Assembly: GCA_000171835.1 (NCBI GenBank)
Contig: ABHC01000004.1
Span: 1-64,000, forward strand
Source: an alpha proteobacterium BAL199
GTDB taxonomy: Bacteria; Pseudomonadota; Alphaproteobacteria; Thalassobaculales; Thalassobaculaceae
DNA length: 64,000 nt
Direction of reading: 5' to 3'
The notes beneath the pieces are model-generated. The model was given only the letters and a program-made list of their open reading frames with translations, searched no databases and was not told the origin of the DNA. The position numbers were made by a program, and so were the translations under genes. Positions 33,506 to 49,865 of the stretch are shown here, in pieces (within the stretch, counting starts at the first letter, position 1; every line of letters starts with the position of its first letter).

Positions 33506-34405
33506 CTACTCCACCGCGTACAGCTTTTCGAGGGCGTCGTAGGACGCCTTATCGACCAGACGCTGGCGTTCATCGAAACCAGCCAGCCGATCCTTGACCG
33601 CATCCAGGCCGCCGTCGCGCTTCAGCGCGCCAAGCACTTCGCCCATCGCCCGCATGGCGGCCTGCAGCGGGGTGTTGGCGTACAGCACGATTGAGAACCC
33701 GATGTCGGCGAGTGCCTGCTGCGGCAGCAGCGGTGTGCGGCCGCCGACCACCAGGTTGGCGACCTGGGGCACCGACAGGCGTTGAGTGATCGTGCGCATC
33801 TCCTGCTCGGAGGTCGGAGCCTCCACGAAGGTCATGTCGGCGCCGGCCTCGATGTAGCGCTCGGCCCGTTCGATGGCGGCGTCGAGACCTTCGATGGCAC
33901 GGGCATCGGTGCGCGCCATGACCAGCAGGTTGGAGTCCTCGCGGGCATCGACCGCGGCCTTGATCTTCGACACCATCTCGGCGACCGGGATCACGCCCTT
34001 GCCGTCGAAATGACCGCATTTCTTGGGAAACACCTGGTCTTCCATCTGCACCGCGCAGGCGCCGGCCCGCTCCAGCACCCGCACCGTGCGGCGGGTGTTG
34101 ACGGCGTTGCCGAAGCCGGTGTCGATGTCGACGATCATCGGCAGGGTGCAGATCTCGCCGATCGCCTCGGTGGTGTGGGCCAGTTCGGTCAGGGTCACCA
34201 GGCCGATGTCCGGTACGCCGAGCAGGGTGTTGGCGATCCCGGCGCCGGTGACGTAGATCGCGTCGAAGCCGACATCCTGGATGACCCGGGCGGTCAGCGC
34301 GTTGGCGGCACCCGGCACCAGTATCGCGCGGCGCTCGTTGACGGCGGCGCGCAGACGTTTGCGCCGATCGGAGATCCGGTCACCCGAAGCGCTGCCACCT
34401 GCCAT
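33506..34405 (-). CDS. Isocitrate lyase/PEP mutase superfamily lyase (copy 1)
   Basis: A 299-residue relative of the next gene. The loop is DIDTGFG (93-99) and the catalytic KKCGH at 128-132 has Cys130. EDQVFPKKCGHFDGK matches oxaloacetate-decarboxylase/methylisocitrate-lyase-like enzymes. It is the first gene of the minus-strand unit reaching to 26739, with a good promoter and the GntR-type palindrome at 34456-34492. No methylcitrate synthase lies nearby, so this is not a standard prp operon. Confidence 0.87.
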   Translation of the reverse strand: MAGGSASGDRISDRRKRLRAAVNERRAILVPGAANALTARVIQDVGFDAIYVTGAGIANTLLGVPDIGLVTLTELAHTTEAIGEICTLPMIVDIDTGFGNAVNTRRTVRVLERAGACAVQMEDQVFPKKCGHFDGKGVIPVAEMVSKIKAAVDAREDSNLLVMARTDARAIEGLDAAIERAERYIEAGADMTFVEAPTSEQEMRTITQRLSVPQVANLVVGGRTPLLPQQALADIGFSIVLYANTPLQAAMRAMGEVLGALKRDGGLDAVKDRLAGFDERQRLVDKASYDALEKLYAVE

Positions 34406-34455: not shown

Positions 34456-34484
34456 AATAAACGATGACTCATGGGTTCCGTCAA
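34456..34484 (-). promoter_or_regulatory. Sigma-70-like promoter of the lyase-hyuBA operon
   Basis: The minus strand reads TTGACG, 17 bases, TTTATT, ending 51 bases before the lyase start at 34405. The -35 lies inside the palindrome 34480-34492, so binding there would block it. Confidence 0.6.
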
Positions 34485-34492
34485 CTGTTGAC
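34480..34492. promoter_or_regulatory. GTCAACTGTTGAC palindrome (candidate GntR operator 1)
   Basis: Perfect palindrome with 6-base arms around one base, in the divergent region between the lyase operon and the AtuA gene. It covers the minus-strand -35 and a plus-strand TTGACA. Related sites are at 41811, 49853 and 53783. Confidence 0.65.
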
Positions 34493-34564: not shown

Positions 34565-35935
34565 GTGGCTGTCTCAAGCGCCACCTGCCGCATGCTGTCG
34601 ACCAGTGGGATCCTCGGTTACGGATTTCCCGAGAGTTCGCTGGAGCTCGGAATGGCGCGCGGCATCCATATGCTGGGCGTCGACGGCGGCAGCACCGATC
34701 CGGGTCCGCACTATCTCGGCTCCGGCAAGACCCTAAACTCCCGCCGGGCCATGCGCCGGGACCTTCAGCTGATGCTGCGCGCCGCCCGCAAGCACGGTGT
34801 GCCGCTGGTCATCGGCACCTGCGGCGGGGCCGGTGGGGCCCCGCATGTGGCGATGACCGCGGACATCGTCCGGGCGCTGGCCGCCGAAGACGGTCTGCAT
34901 TTCCGCCTGGCGACCATCGACGCCGAGCAGGACAAGGCCACGTTGAAGCGCGCCCATGGCGAGGGTCGGATGGCCCGCCTGCCGGGCGGTCCGACGCCGG
35001 ACCCGGCCGCCATCGACCGGTCGGAGCGGATTGTGGCGATGATGGGGCCCGAGCCGATCGCCGCCGCCCTCGATGGTGGTGCCGAGGTGGTGCTGGCCGG
35101 GCGTTCCAGCGATCCGGCACCCTGGGCGGCACTGGCGATGCGCAATGGCTTGCCCCCCGCGCCCGCCTGGTACGCCGGCAAGATGCTGGAATGCGGCGCC
35201 ACCCCGGCGGTGCCGAAGGGCCATGATTGCCTGCTCGTCGATGTCGATGGGGACAGCGTGATTCTGGAGCCGGCGGCGCCGGAGCGGCGCTGCACACCTT
35301 CGTCGGTCGCTAATCACAGCCTGCATGAGAACCCCAGCCCGTGCATCCATGTCGAGCCGGGCGGTATCCTCGACACCACCGATTGCCTGTTCGAGGCGGT
35401 GTCGGATCGGGCGGTGCGGGTGTCCGGCATGACTTGGCAGAAGCAGCCCTACACTGTGAAGCTGGAAGGTGCGGAACTCGCCGGCTACCGCGCGATCACG
35501 GTATGCGGCACCCGCGACCCGCTGCTGATCGCCACCCGCGACGACTTCCTGGCCCGGGTGCGCGACGCCGTCGCCCAGAAGGCGGCCGCCCTCGGGGTGG
35601 AGCCTGACGAGTACCGTCTGATCATCCGGCGCTACGGCGTAGACGGGGTAATGGGGCCGGCCGAGCCGTTGCGCGACGCCCGCCCACACGAGATCGGCTT
35701 CGTCATCGAGGTCGTTGCTTCAGACCAGGAAACCGCCGATTCGGTGCTGGCACTGGCCCGGGTCACCATGCTGCACACCGACTTTCCCGGCCGGTTGTGC
35801 CGCGAGGGCAACATGGCGTTCCCGTACTCGCCGTCCGACATCTCGACCGGACCAGTCTACCGGTTCTCGGTGTTCCAGACCATGGCGCTGGACGATCCGC
35901 TGGCGCCGTTCCCGATTCACTACGAGGACTTGTGA
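34565..35935 (+). CDS. AtuA-family (DUF1446) protein
   Basis: A 456-residue protein of the acyclic terpene utilisation AtuA family. Typical parts are GYGFPESSLE near the start, GVDGGSTDPGPHYLGSG, IGTCGGAGGAPH and VLAGRSSDPAPWAALAM. GTG at 34565 with GGAAGG upstream is chosen; the open frame further upstream crosses the regulatory region. The biochemical role of AtuA is unresolved; it occurs in terpene, acyl-CoA and unknown catabolic clusters. The DUF4387 partner follows in a TGATG overlap. Confidence 0.85.
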   Translation: MAVSSATCRMLSTSGILGYGFPESSLELGMARGIHMLGVDGGSTDPGPHYLGSGKTLNSRRAMRRDLQLMLRAARKHGVPLVIGTCGGAGGAPHVAMTADIVRALAAEDGLHFRLATIDAEQDKATLKRAHGEGRMARLPGGPTPDPAAIDRSERIVAMMGPEPIAAALDGGAEVVLAGRSSDPAPWAALAMRNGLPPAPAWYAGKMLECGATPAVPKGHDCLLVDVDGDSVILEPAAPERRCTPSSVANHSLHENPSPCIHVEPGGILDTTDCLFEAVSDRAVRVSGMTWQKQPYTVKLEGAELAGYRAITVCGTRDPLLIATRDDFLARVRDAVAQKAAALGVEPDEYRLIIRRYGVDGVMGPAEPLRDARPHEIGFVIEVVASDQETADSVLALARVTMLHTDFPGRLCREGNMAFPYSPSDISTGPVYRFSVFQTMALDDPLAPFPIHYEDL

Positions 35936-36267
35936 TGGCGGCGATCCGGGATATCGCGAAGGTCTGCAAGAGCAAGAACGCCGGTCCGTTCCAGTTGACC
36001 ATCGACGTGGTGTTCGAGACCCGAGCCCAGTACGACTCGGTGGCGGCGACCGGGGTTCTGAACGCTGAGCTGATCGGCCGTCTGTACGGGGTGGAACCGG
36101 ACGAGGTTCTGTTCACGCCCTACCCGGCGGGGCTCGCCTTCAAGGCGACGATTCCGCGGGCGATCCCGGCCGGCGACCTCGGCGATACCGACGTCTACGG
36201 TTGCCAGCAGCACGCGCCGCTGCTGGACGTGGACATTCCGGTCAACTGGCCGGCGGCGGAGCGTTGA
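35935..36267 (+). CDS. DUF4387 domain protein (AtuA partner)
   Basis: A 110-residue protein, the usual small partner encoded after or fused to AtuA. The N-terminal IRDIAKVCKSKNAGPFQLTIDVVF and the ...YGCQQHAPLLDVDIPV end are conserved features. Translational coupling by TGATG implies a complex with AtuA. Function unknown. It converges on the GntR gene across 34 bases. Confidence 0.82.
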   Translation: MAAIRDIAKVCKSKNAGPFQLTIDVVFETRAQYDSVAATGVLNAELIGRLYGVEPDEVLFTPYPAGLAFKATIPRAIPAGDLGDTDVYGCQQHAPLLDVDIPVNWPAAER

Positions 36268-36301: not shown

Positions 36302-37006
36302 TCAGGCGACGTCGCTGGCAGGCGTGGCTTCGCTTGCCATGTGGTGCTCCAGGCTGGCCCGGCTGCTTTGGATGTGTGCGCGCATGGCGGCCTCGGCGGC
36401 GTCGGGGTCGCGGGCTTCCAGCGCTTCCAGCACCCGGCGGTGCTCCTCCAGCGCCTGCTTCGGGCGGCCGGGGCGGGTGCTGAGCCGCTGACGGTACAAC
36501 CGCAGCAACGAATACAGTTCCTCGTCGAGCATCTGGAACAGCCTAGCGTTGCCGCTGGCCTTGACGATCCGGTAGTGGAAATCCAGGTCGCCGCCACCCT
36601 GGAAATAGCCCCGGCCGCTGACCACGGCGTCGTCCTGGGCGTGCTGCTCCAGCATCTTCTGCAGGCGCTTCAACTCGGCCGGCTTGATCCGGGTGGCGGC
36701 CAGCCGGCAGGCCATGCCCTCCAGGCTCTCGCGGATCACCAGCAGGTCGATCAGTTCGTCATTGCGCAGCGAGATCACCCGCGCGCCCAGGTTGGCCACC
36801 CGCTCTACCAGGTTGCGGCCCTCCAGCCGACCGATCGCCTCGCGCAGCGGGCCGCGGCTGATGCCGTAGCGCTTGGCCAGGGTGGTCTCGCTCAACCGTT
36901 CTCCCGGCTTCAGTTCACCGGTCATGATCGCCTGCTCCAGGCGCTCGAACGCCAGGGACGACAGGTTGGCGGAGACCAGGGGTTGCGCGAAATCGGTGTG
37001 TGCCAC
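36302..37006 (-). CDS. GntR-family regulator with FCD domain
   Basis: A 234-residue FadR-subfamily regulator. The winged helix is at residues 18-78 (AFERLEQAIMTGELKPGERLSE...GISRGPLREAIGRLEGRNLV). The all-helical FCD domain carries the metal-ligand set Asp140, His144, His189 and His211, so it should bind a metal and a carboxylate-type effector. The GTG at 37006 has GAGGAA upstream; an ATG at 37036 is possible. It lies last in a unit with two NodB-fold genes. FadR-type proteins bind short palindromes, so I infer the GTCRACWGTTGAC sites are its operators. Confidence 0.88.
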   Translation of the reverse strand: MAHTDFAQPLVSANLSSLAFERLEQAIMTGELKPGERLSETTLAKRYGISRGPLREAIGRLEGRNLVERVANLGARVISLRNDELIDLLVIRESLEGMACRLAATRIKPAELKRLQKMLEQHAQDDAVVSGRGYFQGGGDLDFHYRIVKASGNARLFQMLDEELYSLLRLYRQRLSTRPGRPKQALEEHRRVLEALEARDPDAAEAAMRAHIQSSRASLEHHMASEATPASDVA

Positions 37007-37054: not shown

Positions 37055-37966
37055 TCAGCCGCCGGTCGGCTGCGTCTTCATGTGCCCGGCCACCTCGCCG
37101 AGCGTTGCCTGCCAGAGGCCGTCGAAGTCGGCGATCCGGTCCAGCGCCTCGTTCAGGTAGCGGATGCGGTGCGGCATGCCGAACAGCCAGGGATGAATGC
37201 CCAGGCCGAAATACCGGCCGGACGACGCTCCCTCGGCATGGAGCACCGACAGGGCCTCCTCGATCAGCGCCGGATAGCGCTGGGTGAAGACCCGGCGGTG
37301 CCACAGCAACTGCACATCGTCCCATTCCGCCTGACTGGGGATCGAAATCAGAGAGGGCTTGGTGGTCATCCGGTACGGCTGGTCGTCGTTCGGCCAGTCG
37401 GCAACATACTCCAAGCCGGCCTCGGCCAACAGTTGCGGCGTGCGGACCGTCTCGCCGTAGTCCTGGGCGACCCAGCCGCGTGGCCGGGAGCCGGTCGCGT
37501 CGGCCACGGCCGCGATCGCCTTCTCGATCAGGTCGCGCTCCTGCCGTTCGGTGAGCTTGGCCGTGACCATGCGGGTGGCGTGGGTGCCGTGGGCCGCGAA
37601 CTCCCAGCCGCGCCGCCGGCACTCCTCGATCAGAAACGGATAGCGCTCGCAGGCAGCGGCGTTGACCGCGACGGTCGGGCGGATGCCGTGCCGGTCCAGC
37701 GCGTCGAAGATCCGGAAGATGCCGACACGGTTGCCGTATTCCCGCAGGGTGTAGGCGCGGAAGTCGGGCCGGAAATCGCCCATCGGATCCTTGAAGCGGG
37801 GGTCGCGGACGGCGGCCGCCGGCGGGTCGAGCTCCCAGTGTTCCAGATGCAGGATCACCGCGAACGCCACGCGTGCGCCATTGGGCCAGGACATCGGCGG
37901 CCGGTTCGGCAGGGCCGAGAACGGGTACAGGTCGTGGTCCATGCCGGGTGCGCGGAACGACGGCAT
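37055..37966 (-). CDS. Divergent NodB-fold hydrolase (PuuE-like)
   Basis: A 303-residue cytoplasmic NodB-fold protein. The usual Asp-Asp motif 1 is replaced by LEHWELD (41-47). Motif 2 reads AHGTHATR (His126), where the HxxxH second ligand is not conserved. REYGNRVGIFRIFDALDRHGI and IHPWLFGMPHRIRYL identify the subgroup. The PuuE allantoinase is a NodB-fold enzyme reported to work without metal, so a ring-opening amidohydrolase is a reasonable guess. ATG at 37966 with GAGGAGG upstream; a 1-base gap to the preceding paralog. Confidence 0.8.
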   Translation of the reverse strand: MPSFRAPGMDHDLYPFSALPNRPPMSWPNGARVAFAVILHLEHWELDPPAAAVRDPRFKDPMGDFRPDFRAYTLREYGNRVGIFRIFDALDRHGIRPTVAVNAAACERYPFLIEECRRRGWEFAAHGTHATRMVTAKLTERQERDLIEKAIAAVADATGSRPRGWVAQDYGETVRTPQLLAEAGLEYVADWPNDDQPYRMTTKPSLISIPSQAEWDDVQLLWHRRVFTQRYPALIEEALSVLHAEGASSGRYFGLGIHPWLFGMPHRIRYLNEALDRIADFDGLWQATLGEVAGHMKTQPTGG

Positions 37967-37967
37967 G

Positions 37968-38846
37968 TCAGGCCTCCTCGCCCGGCTGTTGTGCCAGGTA
38001 CCAATCGGCGATCTGCTTGCCGGTGGCCAGCCACACCCCGTCCCGCTCCACGATGTGGCGCAGCGCGCGTTCCAGGTGCCGGATGCGATGCGGGTGTCCC
38101 ATGATGTACGGGTGCAGCGCGATGCAGACCACGCGGCCATGCTCGGCACCCTCGTCCCACAGGGTGTCGAAGTGATCGGTCACCATCCGCGCGAATTCCT
38201 CGCCCTCGAACGGATGGCGCCAGACCATCGCGTCGTTGACGTCCATCTGGTACGGCACGGTCACCAACTGGCCGCTGCGCACCCGCATCCGGGTCGGCTG
38301 GTCGTCGTGGTACCAGTCGCAGTAGTAAGTGATGCCGGCTTCGGCGACGAGGTCGGGGGTGTTGTGGGTGAAGGTCGCGGCCGGCGAGAACCAGCCGGCG
38401 AGCTGTTTGCCGGTGAACCGCCGGTAGGTCTCGACGCAGTCGGCGATGATCGCCCGTTCGTCGTCCTCGGCGAGGCCCCAATGGTACTGGGTGTTGTAGA
38501 CACCGTGGCACAGCACGTCCCAGTCGCGCTCGATCATCGCCTCGCAGATCTCGGGGTAATGCTCCCAGTTGGCAATGTTGAGGGAGACCGTGCACGGAAT
38601 GTTCAGCCGGTCGGTGACCTCCATCATCCGCCACAGCCCGACCCGGTTGCCGTAGTCGCGGGTGCCGTAGCCCAGCACGTCCGGGTGCGGCATGCGCGGC
38701 CACGGGTCGCGCGGCCCGATCGGGTCCGGCCGATATTCATAATGCTCCACGTTCGGCACCACCCAGACGGCCACGCGGGCGTCGTTAGGCCAGCGCAGGC
38801 GTGGGCGGGTTACGATCGGCGAATACGGCACGCGCTCAGCACTCAT
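37968..38846 (-). CDS. Divergent NodB-fold hydrolase (PuuE-like)
   Basis: A 292-residue paralog of the next gene. Motif 1 is NVEHYEYRP (32-40) and motif 2 LCHGVYNTQ (His114, Asn118), so the classical Asp/His/His triad is absent. RDYGNRVGLWRMMEVTDRLNI and LHPYIMGHPHRIRHLERAL match the group. It is the first gene of the unit NodB-NodB-GntR, divergent from the dihydropyrimidinase-like gene across 56 bases that show no copy of the palindrome. Confidence 0.8.
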   Translation of the reverse strand: MSAERVPYSPIVTRPRLRWPNDARVAVWVVPNVEHYEYRPDPIGPRDPWPRMPHPDVLGYGTRDYGNRVGLWRMMEVTDRLNIPCTVSLNIANWEHYPEICEAMIERDWDVLCHGVYNTQYHWGLAEDDERAIIADCVETYRRFTGKQLAGWFSPAATFTHNTPDLVAEAGITYYCDWYHDDQPTRMRVRSGQLVTVPYQMDVNDAMVWRHPFEGEEFARMVTDHFDTLWDEGAEHGRVVCIALHPYIMGHPHRIRHLERALRHIVERDGVWLATGKQIADWYLAQQPGEEA

Positions 38847-38902: not shown

Positions 38903-40294
38903 ATGACCAAGATCGACCTGAGACTGGCGGACGGTGACGTGCTGCTGCCCGGCGTGGGCTTCCGCCGGGTCGACGTGCTGGTCGCCGACGGGCGTGTCGC
39001 GGCGGTGACCGAACCCGGTGCCGGTCCGACCGCCACCGAAACGATCGCGCTCGGCGGCTTGACGGTGCTGCCCGGTGCCTGCGACGTGCACCTGCATCTC
39101 GGCCACGGCAGCGACATCTCCCGGCCGCGCCAGCCCTCGGACGCCGATACCGAGACGGCGGCCGCCGCGGTCGGTGGCGTGACCAGCTTCATCCCCTATG
39201 TGATGAGCACCACGCCGTACGCTCCGCTGTTCGACGAGTTGAAGTCGATCACCGAGGAAGGCGCGCGCATCGATTTCGGCTTCCACTTCGTGATCAGCAC
39301 CGACGAGCAACTGGCGGAACTGCCGCGCTACATCACCGAGTTCGGGGTGCCGACCGCCAAGCTGTTCATGAACATCCGCGGCGACGAGGGCGCCCGTCTC
39401 GGCCTGCCCGGCACCGACGACGGCTTCCTGTTCAGGCTGCTGGAAGTGCTGAAGGCCCATGGCGGCATGCTGTGTCCGCATCCGGAAAACATCGAGGTCG
39501 CCTGGGTGCTGCGCGACCGGGTGCTGGATGCCGATCCGGCGGGAGCCGGCGGGCTCGCCACCTGGAACGCCACCCGCCCGCCGTTCGTGGAAGCCGATGC
39601 GATTCGCCGCGCGACGTATTTCGGGCGGGTGGTCGGCGCACCGGTCTACACCGTCCACACCTCGTCGGCCGAGGCTCTGGCGGCCGCGGTCGAACAGCGC
39701 CACCAAGGCAGTCGGGTCACCATCGAGACCTGCACTCACTACCTGACCCACGACACGACCAGTGCCGTCGGCGCGCTGGCCAAGGTCAACCCGCCGCTGC
39801 GCGACCCGGCCGACCGGGAGGCGCTGTGGGAGGGCATCCGCAACGGTGACATCGACACCGTGGCGACCGATCACATCCACCGCCCGGTATCGTCGAAGGA
39901 TGGCGGCATCTGGAAGGCCCAGCCGGGCTTTCCGGGGCTCGATGCGTTCCTGCCCGCATTGTTCAGCGAGGGCCACCACCGCCGCGGCATCCCGCTGGAG
40001 CGGCTCGCCGACCTGGTAACCGCGAATCCGGCCGACGCGATGGGTCTGTCGCCGCGCAAGGGCCGGATCATGCCGGGTGGCGATGCCGATTTCAGCATCC
40101 TCGACATGAAGTCGCGCTGGACGGTGGAGCGCTCTGGCCTCGCCACCGACGCCGGCTACTCGGTCTATGAAGGCCAGGAGATGACCTGCCGGGTGGTGCA
40201 CACCATCGTGCGCGGCGCCTTCGCGGTGCGGGACGGAAAACTGAACGACGGCGCGCGCGGCACCGGCCGCTTCATGCCCCGCCGCCTCACCTGA
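38903..40294 (+). CDS. Dihydropyrimidinase/hydantoinase-like amidohydrolase
   Basis: A 463-residue amidohydrolase with a complete binuclear metal site: DVHLHLG (His63, His65), carbamylated Lys153 (TAKLFM), His193 (CPHPE), His252 (VHTSS) and Asp323 (ATDHIH). It hydrolyses cyclic ureides or imides such as dihydropyrimidines, hydantoins or dihydroorotate. The ATG at 38903 follows GAGGAGAG. The start lies divergent from the NodB-fold pair; together they suggest ring-opening chemistry. The C-terminal loop composition differs enough from known hydantoinases that the substrate cannot be named. Confidence 0.88.
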   Translation: MTKIDLRLADGDVLLPGVGFRRVDVLVADGRVAAVTEPGAGPTATETIALGGLTVLPGACDVHLHLGHGSDISRPRQPSDADTETAAAAVGGVTSFIPYVMSTTPYAPLFDELKSITEEGARIDFGFHFVISTDEQLAELPRYITEFGVPTAKLFMNIRGDEGARLGLPGTDDGFLFRLLEVLKAHGGMLCPHPENIEVAWVLRDRVLDADPAGAGGLATWNATRPPFVEADAIRRATYFGRVVGAPVYTVHTSSAEALAAAVEQRHQGSRVTIETCTHYLTHDTTSAVGALAKVNPPLRDPADREALWEGIRNGDIDTVATDHIHRPVSSKDGGIWKAQPGFPGLDAFLPALFSEGHHRRGIPLERLADLVTANPADAMGLSPRKGRIMPGGDADFSILDMKSRWTVERSGLATDAGYSVYEGQEMTCRVVHTIVRGAFAVRDGKLNDGARGTGRFMPRRLT

Positions 40295-40325: not shown

Positions 40326-41720
40326 CTAGCCACGGCGGTACCGGGCGGCGTACAAGCGGCCGGCCAGAATGTCCGAACCGTCCAGCATGGTCGCGTCGGA
40401 GGAAACCTCACGGCCGATACCGATCTCCCGCTCGGCGATGAACCGCTCGGCCAGCCAGCCTTGCACGGTTGCTGCCGGCAGCGGCTGAAACGGCCCCTGA
40501 TTCGGGATCTGCGCGCGGGATTCCACGTCGTGCCAGTGCCGGCCGTAGTCGGAATCGAGGTTGCGAATGCTGGCGACCACATGTCCCCCCGGCTTCAGCA
40601 CCCGGCGCACCTCGTCGAGCATTCGTTGCGGATCCGGCATGTGTTCCAGTACCTGCGGCAGGACCACGGCATCGACGCTGGCATCGGCATGGGGCAGGAC
40701 GCCCTGCGGCATCAACTCGGTGTGCAGGCGGTCCACCGGCAGCTGTTCCTGGCGGAAACGCTCGACGATGAAGGTCAGGTTGTGCGGCGACAGTTCCGCC
40801 AGATGGAGCTCGACCTTTGGGTTCAGCCGGCGGCGGAGTTCGACGCTGTAGGTTCCGCCCCACGGCATCACCTCGACGACGCGTGCGCCCGTCTGCAGGT
40901 CCGGCAGCAGGTCGAGTTCGACCTTCGTCGCGGCACCCTGGCGCCGCGACACGTAGACCCCGGCCAGCGGCGACTTCGCCCACACCGAATAGCCGCGGAA
41001 GTCGCCGATCTGTCCCCAACTCCACTGCCGTGGGTCCCAGAGCGCGAACGGGTTGTCATCGTTTCGGATCCGGAAGAATGGATACTCGTCGGCCAGCTTG
41101 ACCGGATAGCGGGTCACCGCCGGCCGGTCGAACCGGTTCCAGGAGTGCACCTCGGTGAACGGCCGGCGCGGCGCCTTCATCGGCGGCGCCGACGGCCGCG
41201 GTCGGCCGATCGCCAGCGCGCCCTGGATCTCGAAGGTCGGCGGCACGCCCATCATCTCGGCCAGCGCCACCTTGTCGCCGATCCCGGCGTTCCAGATCGC
41301 CGAGAATCCGCGCAGATGCGCGCTCAGCATCATGTGGTAGGCGGCGCCGGCGACCGACTGCACCACCGAGAAATTGCCGTGGGTCCAGCCCTTCTGGAAG
41401 CACAGGTAGATCAGCGCCGAGCATTCGGCGAAGTGATGGTTGCCGCCGGAGATCTCGTGGGCGCGCAGCTTCAGCGCCGGATCGTCGATCACGATGAAGT
41501 GCCATTGCTGCTGGTTGCAGGACGACGGTGCTTCGGTGCCGTCCCGCACGATCTCCGCCAGGACCGAGCGGTCGATCGGCGAGCCGTCGAAATCCCGACA
41601 GGAGCAACGGGTGGCGAGTACGTCCAGGATCTCCCGCCAATCGGGTCGACGCGGTGCCAGCGCCGTGGCGCCGACAGGTTCCACCGTCATTGGTGCGTTG
41701 GCGGTAGCGCCCTTGGACAT
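40326..41720 (-). CDS. Nitroreductase-methyltransferase fusion protein
   Basis: A 464-residue two-domain protein. Residues about 27-185 are a nitroreductase/FMN domain (ATRCSCRDFDGSPID with the FMN-contact Arg, EAPSSCNQQQWHFIVID, HMMLSAHLRGFSAIW). A linker of about 80 residues contains RNDDNPFALWDPRQWSWG. Residues about 265-460 are a class I SAM methyltransferase (VVEVMPWGGTY at 281-291, LPQVLEHMPDPQRMLDEVRRVLKPGG). The reading frame is continuous, so the fusion is genuine. The SAM loop is atypical (MPWGG for GxGxG). The palindrome at 41811 lies upstream. It may reduce and methylate one substrate; unknown. Confidence 0.82.
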   Translation of the reverse strand: MSKGATANAPMTVEPVGATALAPRRPDWREILDVLATRCSCRDFDGSPIDRSVLAEIVRDGTEAPSSCNQQQWHFIVIDDPALKLRAHEISGGNHHFAECSALIYLCFQKGWTHGNFSVVQSVAGAAYHMMLSAHLRGFSAIWNAGIGDKVALAEMMGVPPTFEIQGALAIGRPRPSAPPMKAPRRPFTEVHSWNRFDRPAVTRYPVKLADEYPFFRIRNDDNPFALWDPRQWSWGQIGDFRGYSVWAKSPLAGVYVSRRQGAATKVELDLLPDLQTGARVVEVMPWGGTYSVELRRRLNPKVELHLAELSPHNLTFIVERFRQEQLPVDRLHTELMPQGVLPHADASVDAVVLPQVLEHMPDPQRMLDEVRRVLKPGGHVVASIRNLDSDYGRHWHDVESRAQIPNQGPFQPLPAATVQGWLAERFIAEREIGIGREVSSDATMLDGSDILAGRLYAARYRRG

Positions 41721-41810: not shown

Positions 41811-41823
41811 GTCAACAGTTGAC
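41811..41823. promoter_or_regulatory. GTCAACAGTTGAC palindrome (candidate GntR operator 2)
   Basis: Perfect palindrome with 6-base arms around one base, between the nitroreductase fusion (minus) and the TRAP operon (plus). It contains TTGACA on the minus strand and TTGACC on the plus strand. Placed immediately after the plus-strand -10. Confidence 0.65.
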
Positions 41824-41970: not shown

Positions 41971-42996
41971 ATGAACAAGCCAATGCGCATGCTCGTCCAG
42001 GCCGCGGTTGTGCTTTCGACGGTGTCGATCGCCACTGCAGCCCAGGCCGAAGCCGAATTCAAGCTGCGCTGGGGCCATTATCTCGGCAACAGCAAGTTCC
42101 TGAAGCCCGAGCAGGACTTCGCCAAGGCGATTGAGGAACGCACCAAGGGTCGCGTGACGATCGAGATTGCCTACGCCGGCGCGCTCGGCAAGGGCAATGA
42201 GGTTCTGACCCTGGCCGGCCGCGGCGCCATCGACATGGCCTCGGTGGTTCCAGGCTACTACGCCGACCAACTGCGGTTCTGGAAGGCTTTCCAGATCCCG
42301 TTCGTGTTCAGCTCGCCGAAGCAGGCGATCGAGGTGTCGATCGCGTCCTACAAGGAACTGCCGCCGTTCAAGGCCGAACTGGACAAGATGAACGTGCGGT
42401 TCCTGTTCCATCAGCCGCTCGGCCAGTACTACCTGACCGGCCCGTCGGCGGATTGCGACTCGGTGGACGGCCTGAAGGGCAAGAAGGTCCGCAGCTTCGG
42501 CGCCGATATTCCGCAGGTCCAGGGTGCGATCGGCGCGGTCCCGGTGACGATCGGCGTCGGCGACATCTACGAGGCGCTGCAGCGCGGCTCGCTGGATTAT
42601 TCGTTCCTCAACCCGGGCAACATCGAAGCCAACAAGCTGTATGAGCCGGGCAAGTACAGCTGCGGCCCGATCATGTCGATCGCCGGGCACCTGATTGTCA
42701 TCGGCAACCGGACCTGGGATCGTCTGCCCAAGGACATCCAGGACATCTTCCTCGACCAGGCAGCCAAGAGCCAGGCCGAGTACATCCCGTTCCTCGACGC
42801 GATTGAGGGCGAGGCGATGGAGAAGATCAAGGCGGGCGGCGGCATCTTCAAGCCGTTCCCGGCCGCGGAAATGGCGAAGTGGCGCAAGGCCTCGCCGGAT
42901 CTGCTGGCGGCCTGGGTCAAAGGCATGGAAGCCGACGGTCGCGGTGCCGAAGCCGCGGCGGTCGCCAAGCGGTGGCGCGAGTTGACCGCGAACTGA
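41971..42996 (+). CDS. TRAP transporter substrate-binding protein (DctP family)
   Basis: A 341-residue periplasmic binding protein with signal peptide (residues 1-27, ending ATAAQA). Core patterns are FKLRWGHYLGNS, the EIAYAGALGKGNEVL loop and GLKGKKVRSFGAD, with the conserved Arg that normally grips a carboxylate. Ligands are therefore organic acids. GGAGGTAAGCA precedes the ATG. First gene of a complete DctP-Q-M set; the cluster's catabolic genes probably process its cargo. Confidence 0.9.
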   Translation: MNKPMRMLVQAAVVLSTVSIATAAQAEAEFKLRWGHYLGNSKFLKPEQDFAKAIEERTKGRVTIEIAYAGALGKGNEVLTLAGRGAIDMASVVPGYYADQLRFWKAFQIPFVFSSPKQAIEVSIASYKELPPFKAELDKMNVRFLFHQPLGQYYLTGPSADCDSVDGLKGKKVRSFGADIPQVQGAIGAVPVTIGVGDIYEALQRGSLDYSFLNPGNIEANKLYEPGKYSCGPIMSIAGHLIVIGNRTWDRLPKDIQDIFLDQAAKSQAEYIPFLDAIEGEAMEKIKAGGGIFKPFPAAEMAKWRKASPDLLAAWVKGMEADGRGAEAAAVAKRWRELTAN

Positions 42997-43076: not shown

Positions 43077-43634
43077 ATGACGGTGATTGCGAAGATTCTG
43101 GAACGGTTGGCCTTGGGTGTCCTTCTGGTGGGCGGTGTCGGCATGCTGCTGTCGATGTTCCTCGGTACTGCCGACGTGATCGGGACCCAGATGCTGGGCC
43201 GCCCGGTGCCGGGGGCGCTCGAGATTACCGAGAGCACCATGGTGCTGATCGTGTTCGGGGCGCTGACCTACGGGCAGATCCGGCGCAGCCACATCCGGGT
43301 CGAGTTGCTGTACACACGGTTGCCGCCGCGCGGGCGGGCCGCCCTGGATGTCCTGGCCGACGCCTGCGGATTGCTGTTCTTCGGCCTGCTGTTCTGGCAG
43401 GCGGTCAACGAGGCGCAGTTCAGCATGCAGATCGGCGAGGCTACCGACGGGCTGATCCGGTTCCCGCTGTATCCGGCCCGCATCATCCTGGCGACCGGCA
43501 CCGGCCTGCTGCTGGTGCGCCTGGTCCTTGACGTGATCGTCGATACGCAGCGGCTGATCGACGGCACCGAACTCGAGGTTCCGGTCGATCCGGCGTACGC
43601 CGATCTGATCGCCCTCGACGCCAAGAAAAACTAG
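43077..43634 (+). CDS. TRAP transporter small permease (DctQ family)
   Basis: A 185-residue membrane protein with four hydrophobic segments (about 14-36, 53-72, 92-112 and 130-150). GRPVPGALEITESTMVLIVFGAL and GQIRRSHIRVELLYTRL match DctQ. It bridges binding protein and DctM. The ATG at 43077 lies some 15 bases after GAGGAAGG. It follows dctP by 80 bases and precedes dctM by 20. Confidence 0.9.
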   Translation: MTVIAKILERLALGVLLVGGVGMLLSMFLGTADVIGTQMLGRPVPGALEITESTMVLIVFGALTYGQIRRSHIRVELLYTRLPPRGRAALDVLADACGLLFFGLLFWQAVNEAQFSMQIGEATDGLIRFPLYPARIILATGTGLLLVRLVLDVIVDTQRLIDGTELEVPVDPAYADLIALDAKKN

Positions 43635-43654: not shown

Positions 43655-44968
43655 GTGCTGGATCCGGCCACGACGGGCGTCATCGTTACGGTGGTGCTGT
43701 TCGTCATGCTCGCCCTGGGCGTGCACATCGGCGTCTCGCTCGGTCTCGGCGGCATTCTCGGCATCTATCTGGCGATCGGACCGGATGCGGCATGGGCGCA
43801 GTTGGCGACCATTCCGTTCAGCACCACCAATTCGTTCACGCTGGCGGTCATCCCGCTGTTCATCCTGATGGGATCGCTGGCCACTCAGGCGTCGCTGACG
43901 ACGGATCTATACCGGGCTGCCTACGCCTGGATGGGCCGGCTGCCGGGTGGGCTGGCGATCGCCACCACCATGGCGTCGGCGGCGTTCGGCGCGGCCTGCG
44001 GGTCGACCATCGTCAATGCCGCGGTGTTCACCCGGATGGCGATGCCGGAGATGGTGCGGTTCGGCTACGACAAGCGGTTGAGTGCCGGCTGCATCGCGGC
44101 GGCCGGGACCCTGGCGTCGCTGATTCCACCCAGCATCCTGATGGTGGTCTACGCGATCATCACCGAGCAATCGATCGCCAAGCTGCTGATGGCCGGTCTG
44201 GTGCCGGGGCTGCTGTCGGCCGGCGTGTTCGTAACCGGCATCGTGGCAATCGCCTACTGGCGGCCGGAGCTGTGCCCGCGTCCCGACATCCAGATCCCGT
44301 GGAGCGAGCGCTGGGAGTCGCTGAAGCACATCTGGGGCATCGGATTCCTGTTCGTGCTGGTGATCGGCGGCATCTATTTCGGCTGGTTCATCCCGACCTA
44401 CGCCGGGGCGATCGGCGCGTTCGGCGCGTTCCTGATCGTGCTGGGCAAGGGCCGGTTGTCGCGCGCCGGCATGGTCGACACCTTCAAGGATGCCGGCACT
44501 ACCACCACGGTGATCTTCATCATCGTGATCGGCGGCATGCTGTTCGCGCGGTTCCTGACCTACACCGGTCTGATCTCGGGGATCTCCGACGCTCTGCTGG
44601 CAATGGAGCTCAACCCCTATCTGTACCTGCTGTGCTTCGCCGGCCTGTATCTGATCCTCGGCATGTTCGTGGAGCCGATCGCGATCATGGTCATGACCCT
44701 GCCGATCATGTTTCCGATCCTGATCGGTGCCGGGTTCGACCCGATCTGGCTGGGGGTGATCTCGGTCAAGCTGGCGGAGATCTCGCTGCTGACGCCGCCG
44801 GTTGGGCTGAACGTCTACGTGGTGCGCAGCGCCTCGCCGATCCCGCTCAGTCTGGAAGAGGCGTTCGCCGGCGTGACGCCGTTCGTGCTGATGGACGTGT
44901 TCACGCTGGGTCTGCTGATCGCGTTTCCGGCGATCTCGTTGTTCCTGCCGAACCTGATGAGCTACTGA
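43655..44968 (+). CDS. TRAP transporter large permease (DctM family)
   Basis: A 437-residue membrane protein with about 12 hydrophobic segments. LGGILGIYLAIG, FILMGSLATQASL, AFGAACGSTIVNAAVF, IPPSILMVVYAIITEQSIAKL and TPPVGLNVYVV are standard DctM blocks. It catalyses sodium- or proton-coupled solute movement. The start is GTG at 43655 with GAGAGG upstream. It converges with an MmgE/PrpD gene, overlapping by 7 bases. Confidence 0.92.
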   Translation: MLDPATTGVIVTVVLFVMLALGVHIGVSLGLGGILGIYLAIGPDAAWAQLATIPFSTTNSFTLAVIPLFILMGSLATQASLTTDLYRAAYAWMGRLPGGLAIATTMASAAFGAACGSTIVNAAVFTRMAMPEMVRFGYDKRLSAGCIAAAGTLASLIPPSILMVVYAIITEQSIAKLLMAGLVPGLLSAGVFVTGIVAIAYWRPELCPRPDIQIPWSERWESLKHIWGIGFLFVLVIGGIYFGWFIPTYAGAIGAFGAFLIVLGKGRLSRAGMVDTFKDAGTTTTVIFIIVIGGMLFARFLTYTGLISGISDALLAMELNPYLYLLCFAGLYLILGMFVEPIAIMVMTLPIMFPILIGAGFDPIWLGVISVKLAEISLLTPPVGLNVYVVRSASPIPLSLEEAFAGVTPFVLMDVFTLGLLIAFPAISLFLPNLMSY

Positions 44969-46341
44969 CCGGTCGCGCGCAGCGCTTGAGTGAGCGGGCC
45001 GAGGTCGGGCGCACGATCGAGGCCGAGCACCGCCGCCTGAACGGCTGCGGCCGCGTCGGCGGTCAGCGTCCGACCGGCGTTGGTCGCGAACTTCGCCAAC
45101 ACCGCATCCGTGGCAACCGGCCGTCCGGGAGCGCCGCGCACGTCGTCGACCCGGGCTTGACGCACTGAGCCGTCGGTCAGGCGCGCCTGGATGACGGCTT
45201 CGAAGCGTTGCGGGAACTGGTGCCCTTCCATCGGCCGCCAATCCATGCGCCGCGCCACCGACACGATCGCCGGCGCCGGCGGGGCGGCAAACGTGTCGAT
45301 ATCCATCCGGCCGTCCACCAGCAGGGCGGCGAGGCAGTAGGCCAAGCCCCATTTGCCGTCGTAGCCGCTGGCCGGATGCTGGCGACGCTCCCACGGCTCG
45401 CAGATCAGCGGCGCTTCCGGTTGCGGCACTTCGCAGGTCAGTGACGCCAGGGTGTCGACGGTCAGCCCGCCGTCGATCAGGTCTTGCAGCGCTTCCAGGA
45501 ACGGGTGGATGTAATGGCAGCACGGATACAGCTTGAAGGCGGCGTCCGGCAGGTGCCAGACAGAGCCGAGATCGTCGAGTACCCGGTCAAGTCGACCCGG
45601 CGCTTCCGGATCGCGGGCGAACGCCGCCAGGAAGCCGAAGCGGCCCTCCAGGATGCTGGCCGGTCCGGTCATGCCGGACTGGGCGAGGGCTGCGGCCGCG
45701 ATTCCGGTGTGGGCGGCCCATCCGGGGTGCAGCGCCTTCACGGTGCTGCCGTCGCTCAGGAACTCCATCAGGCCGGACGCCTGGCTGCCGGCGATACCGA
45801 TTGCCGATACCGCGGTGCCCTCATCCAATCGCCCGACCGCACTGGCGGCAACCGCGCCGCCGATAGCGCCGCCGACCGCCGAGATCTGGAACCCATGGGC
45901 CTGGAACGCCCCAGGCGCTGACAGACCGAGGCGGATCATCACTTCCCAGGCGGCCAGATAGCCGGCCAGCAGGGTCGCGCCATCGCCGTCGGCTTCCTCC
46001 GCGGCCGCCAGGGCGGCCGAGGCTGCAACCGCGCTGCCATGCACCACCGAACGGGTGTGGGTGTCGTCAAATTCGAGCGAATGGATCAACGATCCGTTCA
46101 GCAATGCTGCGGCCGTTGCGGTCATCCCATTGGAATTTCCGAGTCCGGTCGACCGGCCGGTGTCCCCGCCGATCCGCCGTGCCGCCTGGGCCCAGCGTTG
46201 CGAGAGCGGAACGGTCGACGCCGCCAAACCGACGCCGAGCGCGTCCAGGAGATGCAGTTTGGCGGCCTCGATCACCGGCCCCGGGATCTGATCCAGGCCC
46301 AAGGTCGTGGCGAACTGGGCAATGCGCCGGGCGGTGGTCAT
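44962..46341 (-). CDS. MmgE/PrpD-family protein (copy 1)
   Basis: A 459-residue member of the 2-methylcitrate-dehydratase-like family. LHLLDALGVGLA, NGSLIHSLEFDDTH, VKALHPGWAAHTGI and YPCCHYIHPFLEAL are typical. The family also includes cis-aconitate decarboxylase and iminodisuccinate epimerase, so dehydratase activity is only one option. It overlaps the FAD gene upstream by ATGA and ends the unit isochorismatase-MmgE-FAD-MmgE that begins at 49815. Confidence 0.85.
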   Translation of the reverse strand: MTTARRIAQFATTLGLDQIPGPVIEAAKLHLLDALGVGLAASTVPLSQRWAQAARRIGGDTGRSTGLGNSNGMTATAAALLNGSLIHSLEFDDTHTRSVVHGSAVAASAALAAAEEADGDGATLLAGYLAAWEVMIRLGLSAPGAFQAHGFQISAVGGAIGGAVAASAVGRLDEGTAVSAIGIAGSQASGLMEFLSDGSTVKALHPGWAAHTGIAAAALAQSGMTGPASILEGRFGFLAAFARDPEAPGRLDRVLDDLGSVWHLPDAAFKLYPCCHYIHPFLEALQDLIDGGLTVDTLASLTCEVPQPEAPLICEPWERRQHPASGYDGKWGLAYCLAALLVDGRMDIDTFAAPPAPAIVSVARRMDWRPMEGHQFPQRFEAVIQARLTDGSVRQARVDDVRGAPGRPVATDAVLAKFATNAGRTLTADAAAAVQAAVLGLDRAPDLGPLTQALRATGQ

Positions 46342-47699
46342 GCCTTGTCCTGGATCTCGGCAGCGGCCCGCAGTCCGGCGATCCGGCCGAGGCCAAGCGC
46401 GGTCAGCAGTCCGTTGCCCGAGGCGTAGCCGCCGGCGCCGGTCTGGCCGCTGATCCCGACCGCGGCCCCACCGCCGGCGAACAGGTTCGGGACCGCCGTG
46501 CCGTCCGGGCGCATAACCCGGGCACTGGAGTCGACCAACAGACCGCCCTGGGTGTGGAACAGCCCCGGCTTGACCCGCACGATGCCGAGCGGCGGCTGCA
46601 GCGGGGCAAGGTTGAAATGCGTACGTCCGAACGCATCCGGTGCCTCGCCGCGCGCAGCAGCGTTATAGGCGCCCACCGTGGCTGCCAGGCCCTGCGGGTC
46701 GAGTTCCATGGCGTGTGCCAGAGCCTGCGGCGTGTCGGCCCAGCGCACGCCGCCCATCGCGGCCATTTCGGCGTATTCTTCCTCGTGCTCGGCGACTTCG
46801 TGGATGCGCCGGTCGTAGACCGCGTAGGCGAACTCGCCCTGTGCCATCACGTTGGGCGCGAAGCCGGAGTAGCCGGCGTCCTCGTTGCCGAAGCGCGTGC
46901 CGTCGGCGCTGACCAGGATCCCGCCCTTCTCGATCGTGGTCCAGGACAGTAGGCTGCCCTGCGGGTAGGCGACCGCCGCGTAGCCCTGGTAGGCACCCAT
47001 GTTGCCGAGCGCGGCGCCGACCTGTTCGCCCCAGGCGACCGCCTCGCCGGTGCTGCCGAGTGCGCCGAAGTAATCGGCGGCGGCAATCTCCGGGCACCAG
47101 CGGGCTACCATCTCGCGGTTGCCGGCGAAGCCGTTGGTCGCCAGCAGCAGCTTGCGGCAGGCGATGGTCTCGCCGCCGACCCGCGCGCCGACGACAGCGC
47201 CGCCCTCGACCACAAGGCTTTCGGTCGGGTTGCCGACGGCCAATGGGATTCCACGATCGCTAACAAACCGCAGCAGGTCGTCGACCAGGTCCTGGCCGCG
47301 ACGCGAGCGCGGGGCGTGCAAGCGCGGAACCGAATGGCCGACGTGCTTGTACTCGGTGATCAGCCCCATGCGGGCACCGAGGCCGTCTATCAGCCATTCG
47401 ACCAGCGAAGCCGATTGTTCGGCCATCAGCCCGGTCAGCGGATCGGCGTCGTGGTGCCCGCTGACGCCCATCAGGTCAGTGACCATCCGGTCGGGCGAGT
47501 CCGCGATGCCGGCGTCGCGCTGGTAGCGGCTGCCGGCCCCCGGCACCGATCCGGTGCTGAGCGAGGAGTTGCCGCCGGGGCGGTCCAGCTTCTCGACGAT
47601 TGCCACCTGGATCCCGGCATCGTGGGCGGCGACTGCAGCAGCCAAGCCACAGGCGCCGGCGCCGACCACCAGCAGGTCGAGCGTGTCGTCGGCGCTCAC
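46338..47699 (-). CDS. FAD-dependent oxidoreductase (fumarate reductase-type flavoprotein, copy 2)
   Basis: A 453-residue paralog of the flavoprotein at 26739. Dinucleotide loop VVGAGACGLAAAV, FAD segment GGNSSLSTGSVPGAGSRYQ, and the C-terminal GLFHTQGGLLVDSSARVM with NLFAGGGAAVGISGQTGAGGYASGNGLLTA. The start is GTG at 47699, overlapping the next gene's stop as GTGA; the longer frame to 48791 is a shadow. It sits between two MmgE/PrpD genes, consistent with oxidation/dehydration steps on one chain. Confidence 0.85.
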   Translation of the reverse strand: MSADDTLDLLVVGAGACGLAAAVAAHDAGIQVAIVEKLDRPGGNSSLSTGSVPGAGSRYQRDAGIADSPDRMVTDLMGVSGHHDADPLTGLMAEQSASLVEWLIDGLGARMGLITEYKHVGHSVPRLHAPRSRRGQDLVDDLLRFVSDRGIPLAVGNPTESLVVEGGAVVGARVGGETIACRKLLLATNGFAGNREMVARWCPEIAAADYFGALGSTGEAVAWGEQVGAALGNMGAYQGYAAVAYPQGSLLSWTTIEKGGILVSADGTRFGNEDAGYSGFAPNVMAQGEFAYAVYDRRIHEVAEHEEEYAEMAAMGGVRWADTPQALAHAMELDPQGLAATVGAYNAAARGEAPDAFGRTHFNLAPLQPPLGIVRVKPGLFHTQGGLLVDSSARVMRPDGTAVPNLFAGGGAAVGISGQTGAGGYASGNGLLTALGLGRIAGLRAAAEIQDKA

Positions 47700-49096
47700 G
47701 GACGAGCGCCCTTGGTCATTTCCGCGACCGTCCGGTCCCAGGGGGCGGACAGCAGCGCCGGATCCAGCGCAACCAGGCGTTCCAGCAGCGGCGCCATCGC
47801 CGGGTACGGTACGGCTACGATGCCGCGGATCTTGTCGCGGATCACCGACGGGTCGAACGGTCGGTCCGGTCCGCCGCGCGCGCTCAGGCATTCCTCGGTC
47901 ACCTTGGCGCCGTCGGCAGTCTCGACGGTAACCCGGGCCGGCCGGTCGTTCGGCCATTCCGGTTCCGGATCGAACGCCCCGATCGACACGGTCTCGCGCA
48001 AGGCGGCGGTTTCTCGGTCGCGCAGGGTCGAGGCGTGGAACGCCTCGGCGCCAGCGTGCCCGTGGCGGGCGGTCGAGGCCAGGATGTGCTGCATGGAGAA
48101 TTTGGCGGCCAGGGTGGTCGCCGGGTGCACGTTGTCGAGCTTCTGGCCGCGCCAGTGGGTGTCGATGTGAATGGCTTTGACCGCCGCGCCGCCGCCAGGG
48201 ACCTGCTCCAGGGCCGCCAGCATCGCCTCCACGGCCGAGTGTGCGTATTGGCAGCAGGCGTGCAGCTTGTGATAGCCGTCGGCCAGCGCCCAGGAGGAAC
48301 CGAGCTCGATCGTCAGTTCTCCCGGGTGGGTTTCGCCACCGAACGCGGCGGCATAGACGTCGTGCAGGCTCTCGGGTCGCCCGGTAATCCCGAAGCTTGC
48401 CCAATCGACGGCGCGCAGGCCGGACCAGGCACCGACGCCCGGCCAGACGTTGCGGACCAGCGCCCCCTGGACCGTGTGGTTGAACGGTCCCGGTACCACC
48501 ATGGTGGCGGCCGAGCCGATGGCCGCCGCTGCGGTTTCGGCCGGCAGGCGGCGCAGGGCGGCAACCGTGGCGGCTGCGCCGACCGCCGCCAGGCTGCCGT
48601 GCGGGTGCAGCGTTAGGGTCGACCAGGTGAAGGCGCGGGCCACCCGGGCCGCGGTCTCGTATCCGATCGCGAGTGCGCGCAGGGTGTCTTCGCCAACCGC
48701 GCCGATCGCCTCGGCCTCGGCCAGCAGGGCAGGCACGCAGTACAGCCCGGCGTGGCAGATCACCCGGCGGTAGCCTTCGTCGAGTTCGCACCAGTCGGCG
48801 GCACTGCCGTTCGCGGTCGCCGCGGAATACCGATCAAGCCTCTGGCCACGAGCGTTGAACACGGTGGCCTCGGCCGCGCCGGACGAACGCGCCATGCCGT
48901 CGTGCAGGCCGATCAGTTCCGGCTCGTCGCGCGCCGCCACGATGGCGGCGAGGTCATCGGCCAGCACCACGGCGGCGCGGCGCTGGATCGCCGGTGGAAT
49001 GTCGGACCAGCGCAGCGTCGAGGACCACCGGGTCAGGCTGGCAAGGCCTTCTGCGATCAAGTTGGCGTCGGATGGGCTCGGCGTGGGGCCGTCCAT
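47696..49096 (-). CDS. MmgE/PrpD-family protein (copy 2)
   Basis: A 466-residue MmgE/PrpD protein. WCELDEGYRRVICHAGLYCVPALLAEAE, TLHPHGSLAAVGAA, ADGYHKLHACCQYAHSAVEAM and VHPATTLAAKFSMQHI match the family. It is only distantly similar to copy 1, so the two probably act on different intermediates. The ATG at 49096 follows GGGGAG embedded in the previous gene's end; an upstream GTG at 49105 is less likely. Confidence 0.85.
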   Translation of the reverse strand: MDGPTPSPSDANLIAEGLASLTRWSSTLRWSDIPPAIQRRAAVVLADDLAAIVAARDEPELIGLHDGMARSSGAAEATVFNARGQRLDRYSAATANGSAADWCELDEGYRRVICHAGLYCVPALLAEAEAIGAVGEDTLRALAIGYETAARVARAFTWSTLTLHPHGSLAAVGAAATVAALRRLPAETAAAAIGSAATMVVPGPFNHTVQGALVRNVWPGVGAWSGLRAVDWASFGITGRPESLHDVYAAAFGGETHPGELTIELGSSWALADGYHKLHACCQYAHSAVEAMLAALEQVPGGGAAVKAIHIDTHWRGQKLDNVHPATTLAAKFSMQHILASTARHGHAGAEAFHASTLRDRETAALRETVSIGAFDPEPEWPNDRPARVTVETADGAKVTEECLSARGGPDRPFDPSVIRDKIRGIVAVPYPAMAPLLERLVALDPALLSAPWDRTVAEMTKGARP

Positions 49097-49101
49097 GGCG
49101 T

Positions 49102-49852: not shown

Positions 49853-49865
49853 GTCGACAGTTGAC
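49853..49865. promoter_or_regulatory. GTCGACAGTTGAC palindrome (candidate GntR operator 3)
   Basis: Same site with one arm mismatch, in the divergent region between the cysteine amidase (minus) and a NodB-fold gene (plus). TTGACG on the plus strand could act as a -35; another half-site TTGTCAA lies at about 49881-49887. Confidence 0.55.

Follow-up and report, generated by a model that had tools for sequence, protein, structure and literature searches.

A conserved nitroreductase-methyltransferase fusion protein in a palindrome-linked gene cluster of Alphaproteobacteria

Introduction

The closest described systems to the protein analyzed here are the AlbA-type subunits (CDOA) of cyclodipeptide oxidases (CDO) on the redox side and small-molecule class I methyltransferases on the other. 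In the part of the CDO literature drawn on here (PMC11055893), residues R24, R28, N55 and R175 of AlbA are placed at the FMN, Ser54 lies above the flavin and P136 at its si face. The same part of that source reports that the partner in AlbAB supplies residues around FMN, that CDOA/CDOB fusions exist, and that the FMN-linking cysteine is confined to part of the CDOAs. It also describes many hydantoin and allantoin genes in the neighborhoods of AlbA-type/CDO genes and suggests 2,4-imidazolidinedione-like substrates for CDO-type enzymes.

Here we describe a gene of alpha proteobacterium BAL199 that joins a nitroreductase fold and a class I methyltransferase fold in a single chain. The gene (40326..41720, minus strand) lies in a window of 64,000 nucleotides, by which we mean the whole stretch of DNA that was analyzed (contig ABHC01000004.1, positions 1 to 64,000). 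A literature search, mostly outside subscription journals, found no paper on such a fusion, its function or its gene cluster. We propose, with somewhat less than even confidence, that the fusion protein is a bifunctional enzyme belonging to a catabolic regulon that is under GntR control and serves a cyclic amide, most likely a carboxylate-bearing ring of the hydantoin or imide kind.

Domain analysis of the fusion protein

The minus-strand frame running from 41720 to 40326 translates into 464 codons without interruption. A mechanical ORF call opens this frame at TTG 41891; in our judgment ATG 41720 is the better start, because relatives align from near residue 27 and because the longer start would overlie the operator described below. 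The 464-aa protein matches the Pfam models Nitroreductase (PF00881, 67 bits against a curated cut-off of 23.5), which places it in the nitroreductase superfamily, and Methyltransf_11 (PF08241, 50.1 bits against 21.2). Among the best 25 of 34 NCBIfam matches none is above its own cut-off, and no RutE model is found among these 25. One scan of genome contigs yielded 37 loci that encode a relative of the fusion, and the alignment used throughout has 36 rows, namely the window protein and 35 of the 37 loci (two incomplete copies, L048 and L057, were left out). Its mean column identity is 66%, and the 35 whole fusions are 51-81% identical to the window protein. An AlphaFold2 model built from this alignment has a mean pLDDT of 85.9 and a pTM of 0.82, with residues 1-21 below a pLDDT of 50 and 39 further residues between 50 and 70. 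Foldseek and VIA-align comparisons match residues ~23-204 with nitroreductases and residues 231-464 with class I methyltransferases. The first-pass annotation of this stretch had read one uninterrupted frame holding a nitroreductase domain and a class I methyltransferase with an atypical SAM loop (MPWGG), in a candidate regulon. The translation and the 36-row alignment bear out the frame, the Pfam matches agree on both domains, the alignment supports the loop, and a palindrome upstream of the fusion upholds its place in the regulon.

The nitroreductase-fold domain, defined by PF00881 and by fold matches, covers residues 30-200 (41121..41633, minus strand). It superimposes on 9exv (Z 20.0, rmsd 2.6, 170 aligned) and on 4dn2 (Z 19.8, rmsd 2.4, 167 aligned); fold matches within Z 1 of each other are counted as tied here and below. 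Like AlbA/CDOA (PF00881; 8uc3, 9exv), the domain combines the nitroreductase fold with counterparts of the four FMN-site residues: R24, R28, N55 and R175 of AlbA (8uc3) align with R38, R42, N69 and K182 of the fusion, which are the same in all 36 rows save for one gap at R38 (Arg42, 41595..41597, minus strand, is invariant in 36/36). FMN binding by this half is predicted, as these aligned positions are conserved. Unlike AlbA, with which it shares 24-26% identity, the fusion carries Cys68 (41517..41519, minus strand; invariant in 36/36 rows) in place of Ser54 and has no counterpart of the flavin-linking Cys115, which falls in an AlbA insertion; unlike AlbA/CDOA it has a methyltransferase fold on the same chain. 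Invariant W143 aligns with AlbA P136 (8uc3), and in the part of PMC6017928 considered, HUB-type nitroreductases have a Trp at the matching position.

Membership in the cyclodipeptide oxidases was rejected, there being no CDOB (PF19585) above the cut-off in the BAL199 genome, where the best match (12.9 bits against 28.7) lies on another contig. The best PDB sequence matches of the nitroreductase half are the minimal nitroreductases 4dn2, 3ge5 and 4g8s (E 3.5e-14 to 1.5e-10; 26-28% identity), which, unlike the fusion, are single-domain proteins with putative names. Iodotyrosine deiodinase and BluB belong to the same superfamily; the former is among the top Foldseek matches, and the latter (TIGR02476) was rejected with 41.8 bits against an equivalog cut-off of 150.

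The C-terminal half opens with the joint and a conserved cap (residues 201-260; 40941..41120, minus strand), followed by the core of a class I methyltransferase fold (residues 261-464; 40329..40940, minus strand; PF08241 and fold matches). Residues 223-260 have a mean majority identity of 0.85, with 18 of 38 positions invariant in the 36 rows, the highest conservation among the segments drawn in this half; the corresponding values are 0.50-0.76 in the eight segments of residues 261-464 and 0.77 for residues 30-200. Structure prediction for the linker, which the first-pass annotation had suggested, gives a conserved cap whose helix 235-247, present in both predicted models, superposes on the N-terminal region of methyltransferase structures. 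With this match and the high conservation of residues 223-260, the segment between the domains is no ordinary linker.

Folded alone, residues 201-464 (264 residues) give a pLDDT of 88.4 and a pTM of 0.90, and this model matches 1vlm (Z 20.4, rmsd 2.5, 198 aligned), CmoM 8joz (Z 19.8, rmsd 3.1, 217 aligned) and SpnF 4pne (Z 19.0, rmsd 2.8, 203 aligned). The resemblance to RebM, MitM, CmoM, SpnF and TM1293 extends over nearly the whole C-terminal half, which like small-molecule class I methyltransferases keeps the motif II acid and an LEH..P...RVL.PGG region. Unlike these five proteins, with which it shares 16-25% identity, it has MPWGG in place of the GxGxG of motif I. The remodelled motif I reads E283-x-M-P-W-G-G-T290 (40851..40874, minus strand), with MPWGG (residues 285-289) in register with the glycine motif of RebM. 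W287, G289 and T290 are invariant in all 36 rows, residue 283 is E in 33 and D in 3, and P286 is P in 33. The features of class I methyltransferases present here are a Rossmann-like fold and an acid that ends strand 2, that is, the motif II residue Glu309 (40794..40796, minus strand; E in 34 and D in 2 of 36 rows), at what we take to be the ribose-binding position of such enzymes. A glycine-rich motif I is lacking, with the last of the three glycines alone in register. The C-terminal half is a member of the methyltransferase fold and, from its sequence, a candidate SAM enzyme, although SAM binding is not assured because motif I has lost two of its three glycines.

Another conserved element of this half is the loop P406-N-Q-G-P-F411 (40488..40505, minus strand), in which P406, Q408, G409 and P410 are invariant. 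Eight of the 50 VIA-align matches listed run the chain of a nitroreductase, of NfsA/NfrA type in seven cases, through model residues 406-411, and the loop may therefore pack on the nitroreductase core. These observations bear on the main rival to our proposal, according to which the methyltransferase half has lost methyl transfer and would act as a lid or partner that completes the flavin site, with the PNQGPF loop reaching the nitroreductase core. The replaced GxGxG with its invariant tryptophan, the eight matches through the loop, and a peak of conservation that lies outside the SAM motifs all speak for such a role, as does the precedent of a separate CDOB subunit around FMN in AlbAB and of CDOA/CDOB fusions, described in the cited part of PMC11055893. 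We nevertheless regard it as unlikely: the motif II acid is kept in every row as E or D, solved structures of small-molecule methyltransferases are matched by residues 201-464 with Z scores of 18-20, and the contact of residues 406-411 is read from residue ranges of a predicted model.

It is also conceivable, but improbable, that the methyltransferase half uses SAM or a similar bound cofactor to catalyze another step, such as a cyclization or an isomerization, as SpnF does. The unusual motif I and the place of SpnF among the best fold matches would fit this, but RebM, UbiG, CmoM and MitM, which are named methyltransferases, match about equally well (Z 18.0-19.8).

Genomic neighborhood of the fusion gene

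In order to determine the conserved neighborhood, gene calls of the window were compared by tblastn with the 37 loci, several of which are short contigs; some of the matches at 25-40% identity are paralogs. The gene caller was simple, and the fusion in one locus (L036), missed by the caller, is shown by tblastn. The window cluster includes a protein similar to methylisocitrate/alkylmalate lyases of the PEP mutase family (33506..34405, minus strand; PF13714), which scores 313.3 bits on prpB, below the cut-off of 354.4, and whose PDB matches are petal death protein, PrpB and dimethylmalate lyase. Next are an AtuA-like protein (34592..35935, plus strand; PF07287) and a DUF4387 protein (35935..36267, plus strand; PF14330), each found in 8 of 37 loci, and a GntR/FCD regulator recognized by family scans (36302..37006, minus strand; 26 of 37 loci). 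Two PuuE-like deacetylase-fold hydrolases, also assigned by family scans, follow on the minus strand (37055..37966 and 37968..38846). Convergent with the fusion gene is an allantoinase/hydantoinase-like cyclic amidohydrolase (38903..40294, plus strand; PF01979; 264.4 bits on AllB, below the cut-off of 357.85).

On the other side of the fusion is the TRAP solute-binding protein DctP (41971..42996, plus strand), which matches NF037995 above its cut-off as well as PF03480 and has no PDB match at E 1e-20. The putative TRAP small (43077..43634, plus strand) and large (43655..44968, plus strand) subunits are conserved neighbors that we labeled by position and by our own reading. Beyond them lie, on the minus strand, an MmgE/PrpD family protein (44962..46341; PF03972, PF19305), an FAD-binding dehydrogenase/reductase of the flavocytochrome c/TcuA-like kind (46338..47699; PF00890; best NCBIfam score 230 against 285), and a second PrpD-like protein (47696..49105), whose best PDB sequence matches are IDS-epimerase and IRG1 and which has no NCBIfam match. 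They are followed by an isochorismatase-fold amidohydrolase resembling RutB and biuret hydrolase (49102..49815, minus strand; PF00857; 48.6 bits on RutB, below 377.95) and by a third PuuE-like hydrolase (49945..50838, plus strand; PF01522; PuuE allantoinase in PDB at E 2.1e-21). Two putative amidases, accessory and named by our own reading, follow on the minus strand: the first (50822..52138) has a homolog in 8 of 37 loci, and the second (52135..53715) is listed for 8 of 37, a count that includes, in some loci, 29-36% matches sited where the first amidase stands. By tblastn, homologs of the TRAP subunits are present in 29-30 of the 37 loci, of the flavoprotein in 28, and of the lyase-like, RutB-like and hydantoinase-like genes in 27 each. 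The reactions of the cluster enzymes are uncertain, because those scanned fall short of the cut-offs set for the activities in question.

Family scans of accessory genes in a few loci added a D-hydantoinase above its cut-off, a carbon-nitrogen hydrolase and two Asp/Glu/hydantoin racemase family proteins in L034, an asparaginase-family protein in L046, a 2OG-Fe oxygenase in L037, and in L043 a below-cut-off match to an ABC substrate-binding protein of the kind that serves branched-chain amino acids. Other loci have genes of equal size in the corresponding positions. Two SnoaL-like small proteins adjoin the third PuuE-like gene in L034 (285-1045), and genes of 125-130 aa, matched by size and position, occupy this place in several other loci. 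The association is looser in an Afifella sp. (L049), where the fusion is accompanied by GntR genes and the retrieved stretch lacks most of the cluster, and in L024, where the fusion stands in a different gene context.

Among 98 related genomes, the RutB-like gene is present in 11 of the 12 that carry the fusion, the exception being an 81% complete genome (G023). Three of the 98 have a RutB-like gene (67-72%) without the fusion; in two of them (L078, L079) a hydantoinase-like gene (37%) lies beside it, in the third (L080) a lyase-like gene, and the neighborhoods differ. No replacement for the fusion was identified in these three neighborhoods.

The genes of the cluster share a palindrome, GTCAACNGTTGAC (GTCAAC-N-GTTGAC). 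Within the window it occurs between the fusion and TRAP genes as GTCAACAGTTGAC (41811..41823) and between the lyase-like and AtuA-like genes (34480..34492), both without mismatch, and with one mismatch between the RutB-like and third PuuE-like genes (49853..49865); each of these candidate operators lies between divergent genes. Three more window sites (36193, 53783 and 59119) have 2 mismatches, which is about chance level. Site 53783 reads GTCAACAGTTTGC and precedes by ~70 bp the minus-strand amidase gene with its start at 53715; the same 13 bases are found in intergenic DNA of L051-L054.

Up to 400 bp upstream of the fusion match, the palindrome is present with 0 mismatches in 19, with <=1 in 23 and with <=2 in 27 of the 37 loci, against 17, 21 and 27 of 740 stretches of 400 bp drawn at random from these loci, a background that may include some true sites. 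Altogether 65 sites with <=2 mismatches were counted in 33 of 37 loci against 18.7 expected from simple base shuffles; none was found at this threshold in L024, L037, L038 and L048. In L049 a site at 11728 lies on the downstream side of the fusion. The neighboring GntR protein presumably binds the palindrome.

Ahead of the cluster, the window contains a second catabolic-looking block (26739-33415), whose labels are our reading of gene calls and homologies. It comprises hydantoinase A/B-like genes, another isochorismatase-like gene and an FAD gene, ends with a second lyase-like gene (32555-33415), and holds no palindrome at <=2 mismatches.

Distribution and selection

The loci that encode the fusion belong to Thalassobaculum, Rhodobacteraceae and allied MAGs, Microvirga, Afifella, Aliihoeflea, Tianweitania and Falsigemmobacter; others are titled just Proteobacteria or Alphaproteobacteria, and the short contig L048 is titled Pseudomonadales. 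The fusion is found in 12 of the 98 related genomes, including the BAL199 genome and a broken copy, and it is rare in the wider samples: 2 of 385 genomes from the class (BAL199 included) and 1 of 398 from the phylum (BAL199 itself). In the phylum sample one genome (G436) matches the nitroreductase half alone, in a 173-aa frame. Plasmid records contained no relative of the fusion at E 1e-20. When profiles of the two halves were run against the 385 class genomes, with at most 9 (redox) and 6 (methyltransferase) candidates scored per genome, the two fusions scored 327-334 bits on the redox profile and 426-450 bits on the methyltransferase profile, and the next best matches 73.2 and 55.5 bits. Given this drop in score, the sampled class genomes revealed no separately encoded protein closely related to either half.

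Nei-Gojobori dN/dS in nine pairs that we picked ranges from 0.027 to 0.166 in the redox half and from 0.124 to 0.262 in the methyltransferase half, the latter being higher in each pair. Both halves are under purifying selection in the nine pairs tested. The pairwise distances of the two halves are correlated (Mantel r 0.83, with 0 of 2000 label shuffles as high), which is the expectation for one protein inherited whole.

A nitroreductase or flavin reductase that acts on foreign compounds in general, with an incidental methyltransferase and no role in a pathway, would agree with membership in PF00881. It is very improbable, since the fusion recurs in one palindrome-linked cluster and is as rare as the class sample indicates. 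That a sequencing or assembly error joined two genes, the refutation named in the first-pass annotation, can be dismissed, because 35 of the 37 loci encode both halves in one frame and a further copy (L048), cut by the contig end, is open up to that end; nothing was found in favor of such an error, and the one broken frame, three pieces in three frames in a MAG (L057, on a contig shared with L010), is itself perhaps a sequence error, given the intact fusions elsewhere. The annotation had also allowed for a known family with a function: the architecture does form a conserved family, but no paper giving it a function was found.

Predicted function

In the proposed bifunctional enzyme, the N-terminal half would act with FMN as a minimal nitroreductase-type oxidoreductase, hydrogenating or dehydrogenating a C-C bond adjacent to the amide of the ring, and the C-terminal half would bind SAM through the rebuilt motif I and methylate either this substrate or the product of the redox step. 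An unstable intermediate would thereby stay inside one protein. Ring opening and nitrogen release could then fall to the PuuE-like, hydantoinase-like and RutB-like hydrolases, and cutting of the carbon skeleton into central metabolites to the flavoprotein and the PrpD-like and lyase-like proteins. Both reactions and their order are inferred; we propose the redox chemistry and the methylation from the hydrolases of the cluster and from the association of CDO and hydantoin genes reported in the cited part of PMC11055893. Like many CDO genes, the fusion gene lies near hydantoin/allantoin-type genes. A hydantoin- or imide-type ring fits the company of an AlbA-like flavoprotein with hydrolases for cyclic amides, an amidohydrolase of carbamoyl type and, in L034, members of the racemase family. 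Tetrapyrrole-derived maleimides, thiohydantoins and nicotinate-like routes were also considered as the substrate class, and the data single out none of them. Ergothioneine use was rejected, the hydantoinase-like neighbor scoring 200 and 192 bits on two ErtD models with cut-offs of 600 and 650.

Several lines of evidence count for the bifunctional enzyme. The fusion itself is conserved, with counterparts of the FMN-site residues and with E309 kept despite the changed motif I; the dN/dS of both halves and their correlated distances point the same way, as do the hydantoinase-like and RutB-like neighbors, the co-occurrence with the RutB-like gene and the upstream palindrome. Methyl transfer is the weakest link of the proposal, being unusual in a breakdown pathway, which counts against it. 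The lost motif I glycines, the lack of a PDB match for the TRAP binding protein at E 1e-20 and the below-cut-off scores of the cluster enzymes also weigh against it. The contexts of L049 and L024 and the four loci lacking the palindrome count against it as well, and the three genomes with a RutB-like gene and no fusion imply that steps related to the cluster can do without the fusion.

Both halves belong to large known superfamilies, and the conserved fusion, the non-glycine SAM loop and the cluster point to chemistry absent from the literature found. It is possible, if rather doubtful, that they represent a flavin-plus-SAM family whose motif I (ExMPWGGT) is of a new type and which couples redox chemistry to methylation of a cyclic amide, as part of an undescribed pathway with a final cleavage of the methylisocitrate-lyase type. 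The fusion adds a partner-fused case to the CDO-type nitroreductases reported beside hydantoin genes. The cluster, with a palindrome of its own, offers a handle on a compound that is apparently consumed by a range of Alphaproteobacteria.
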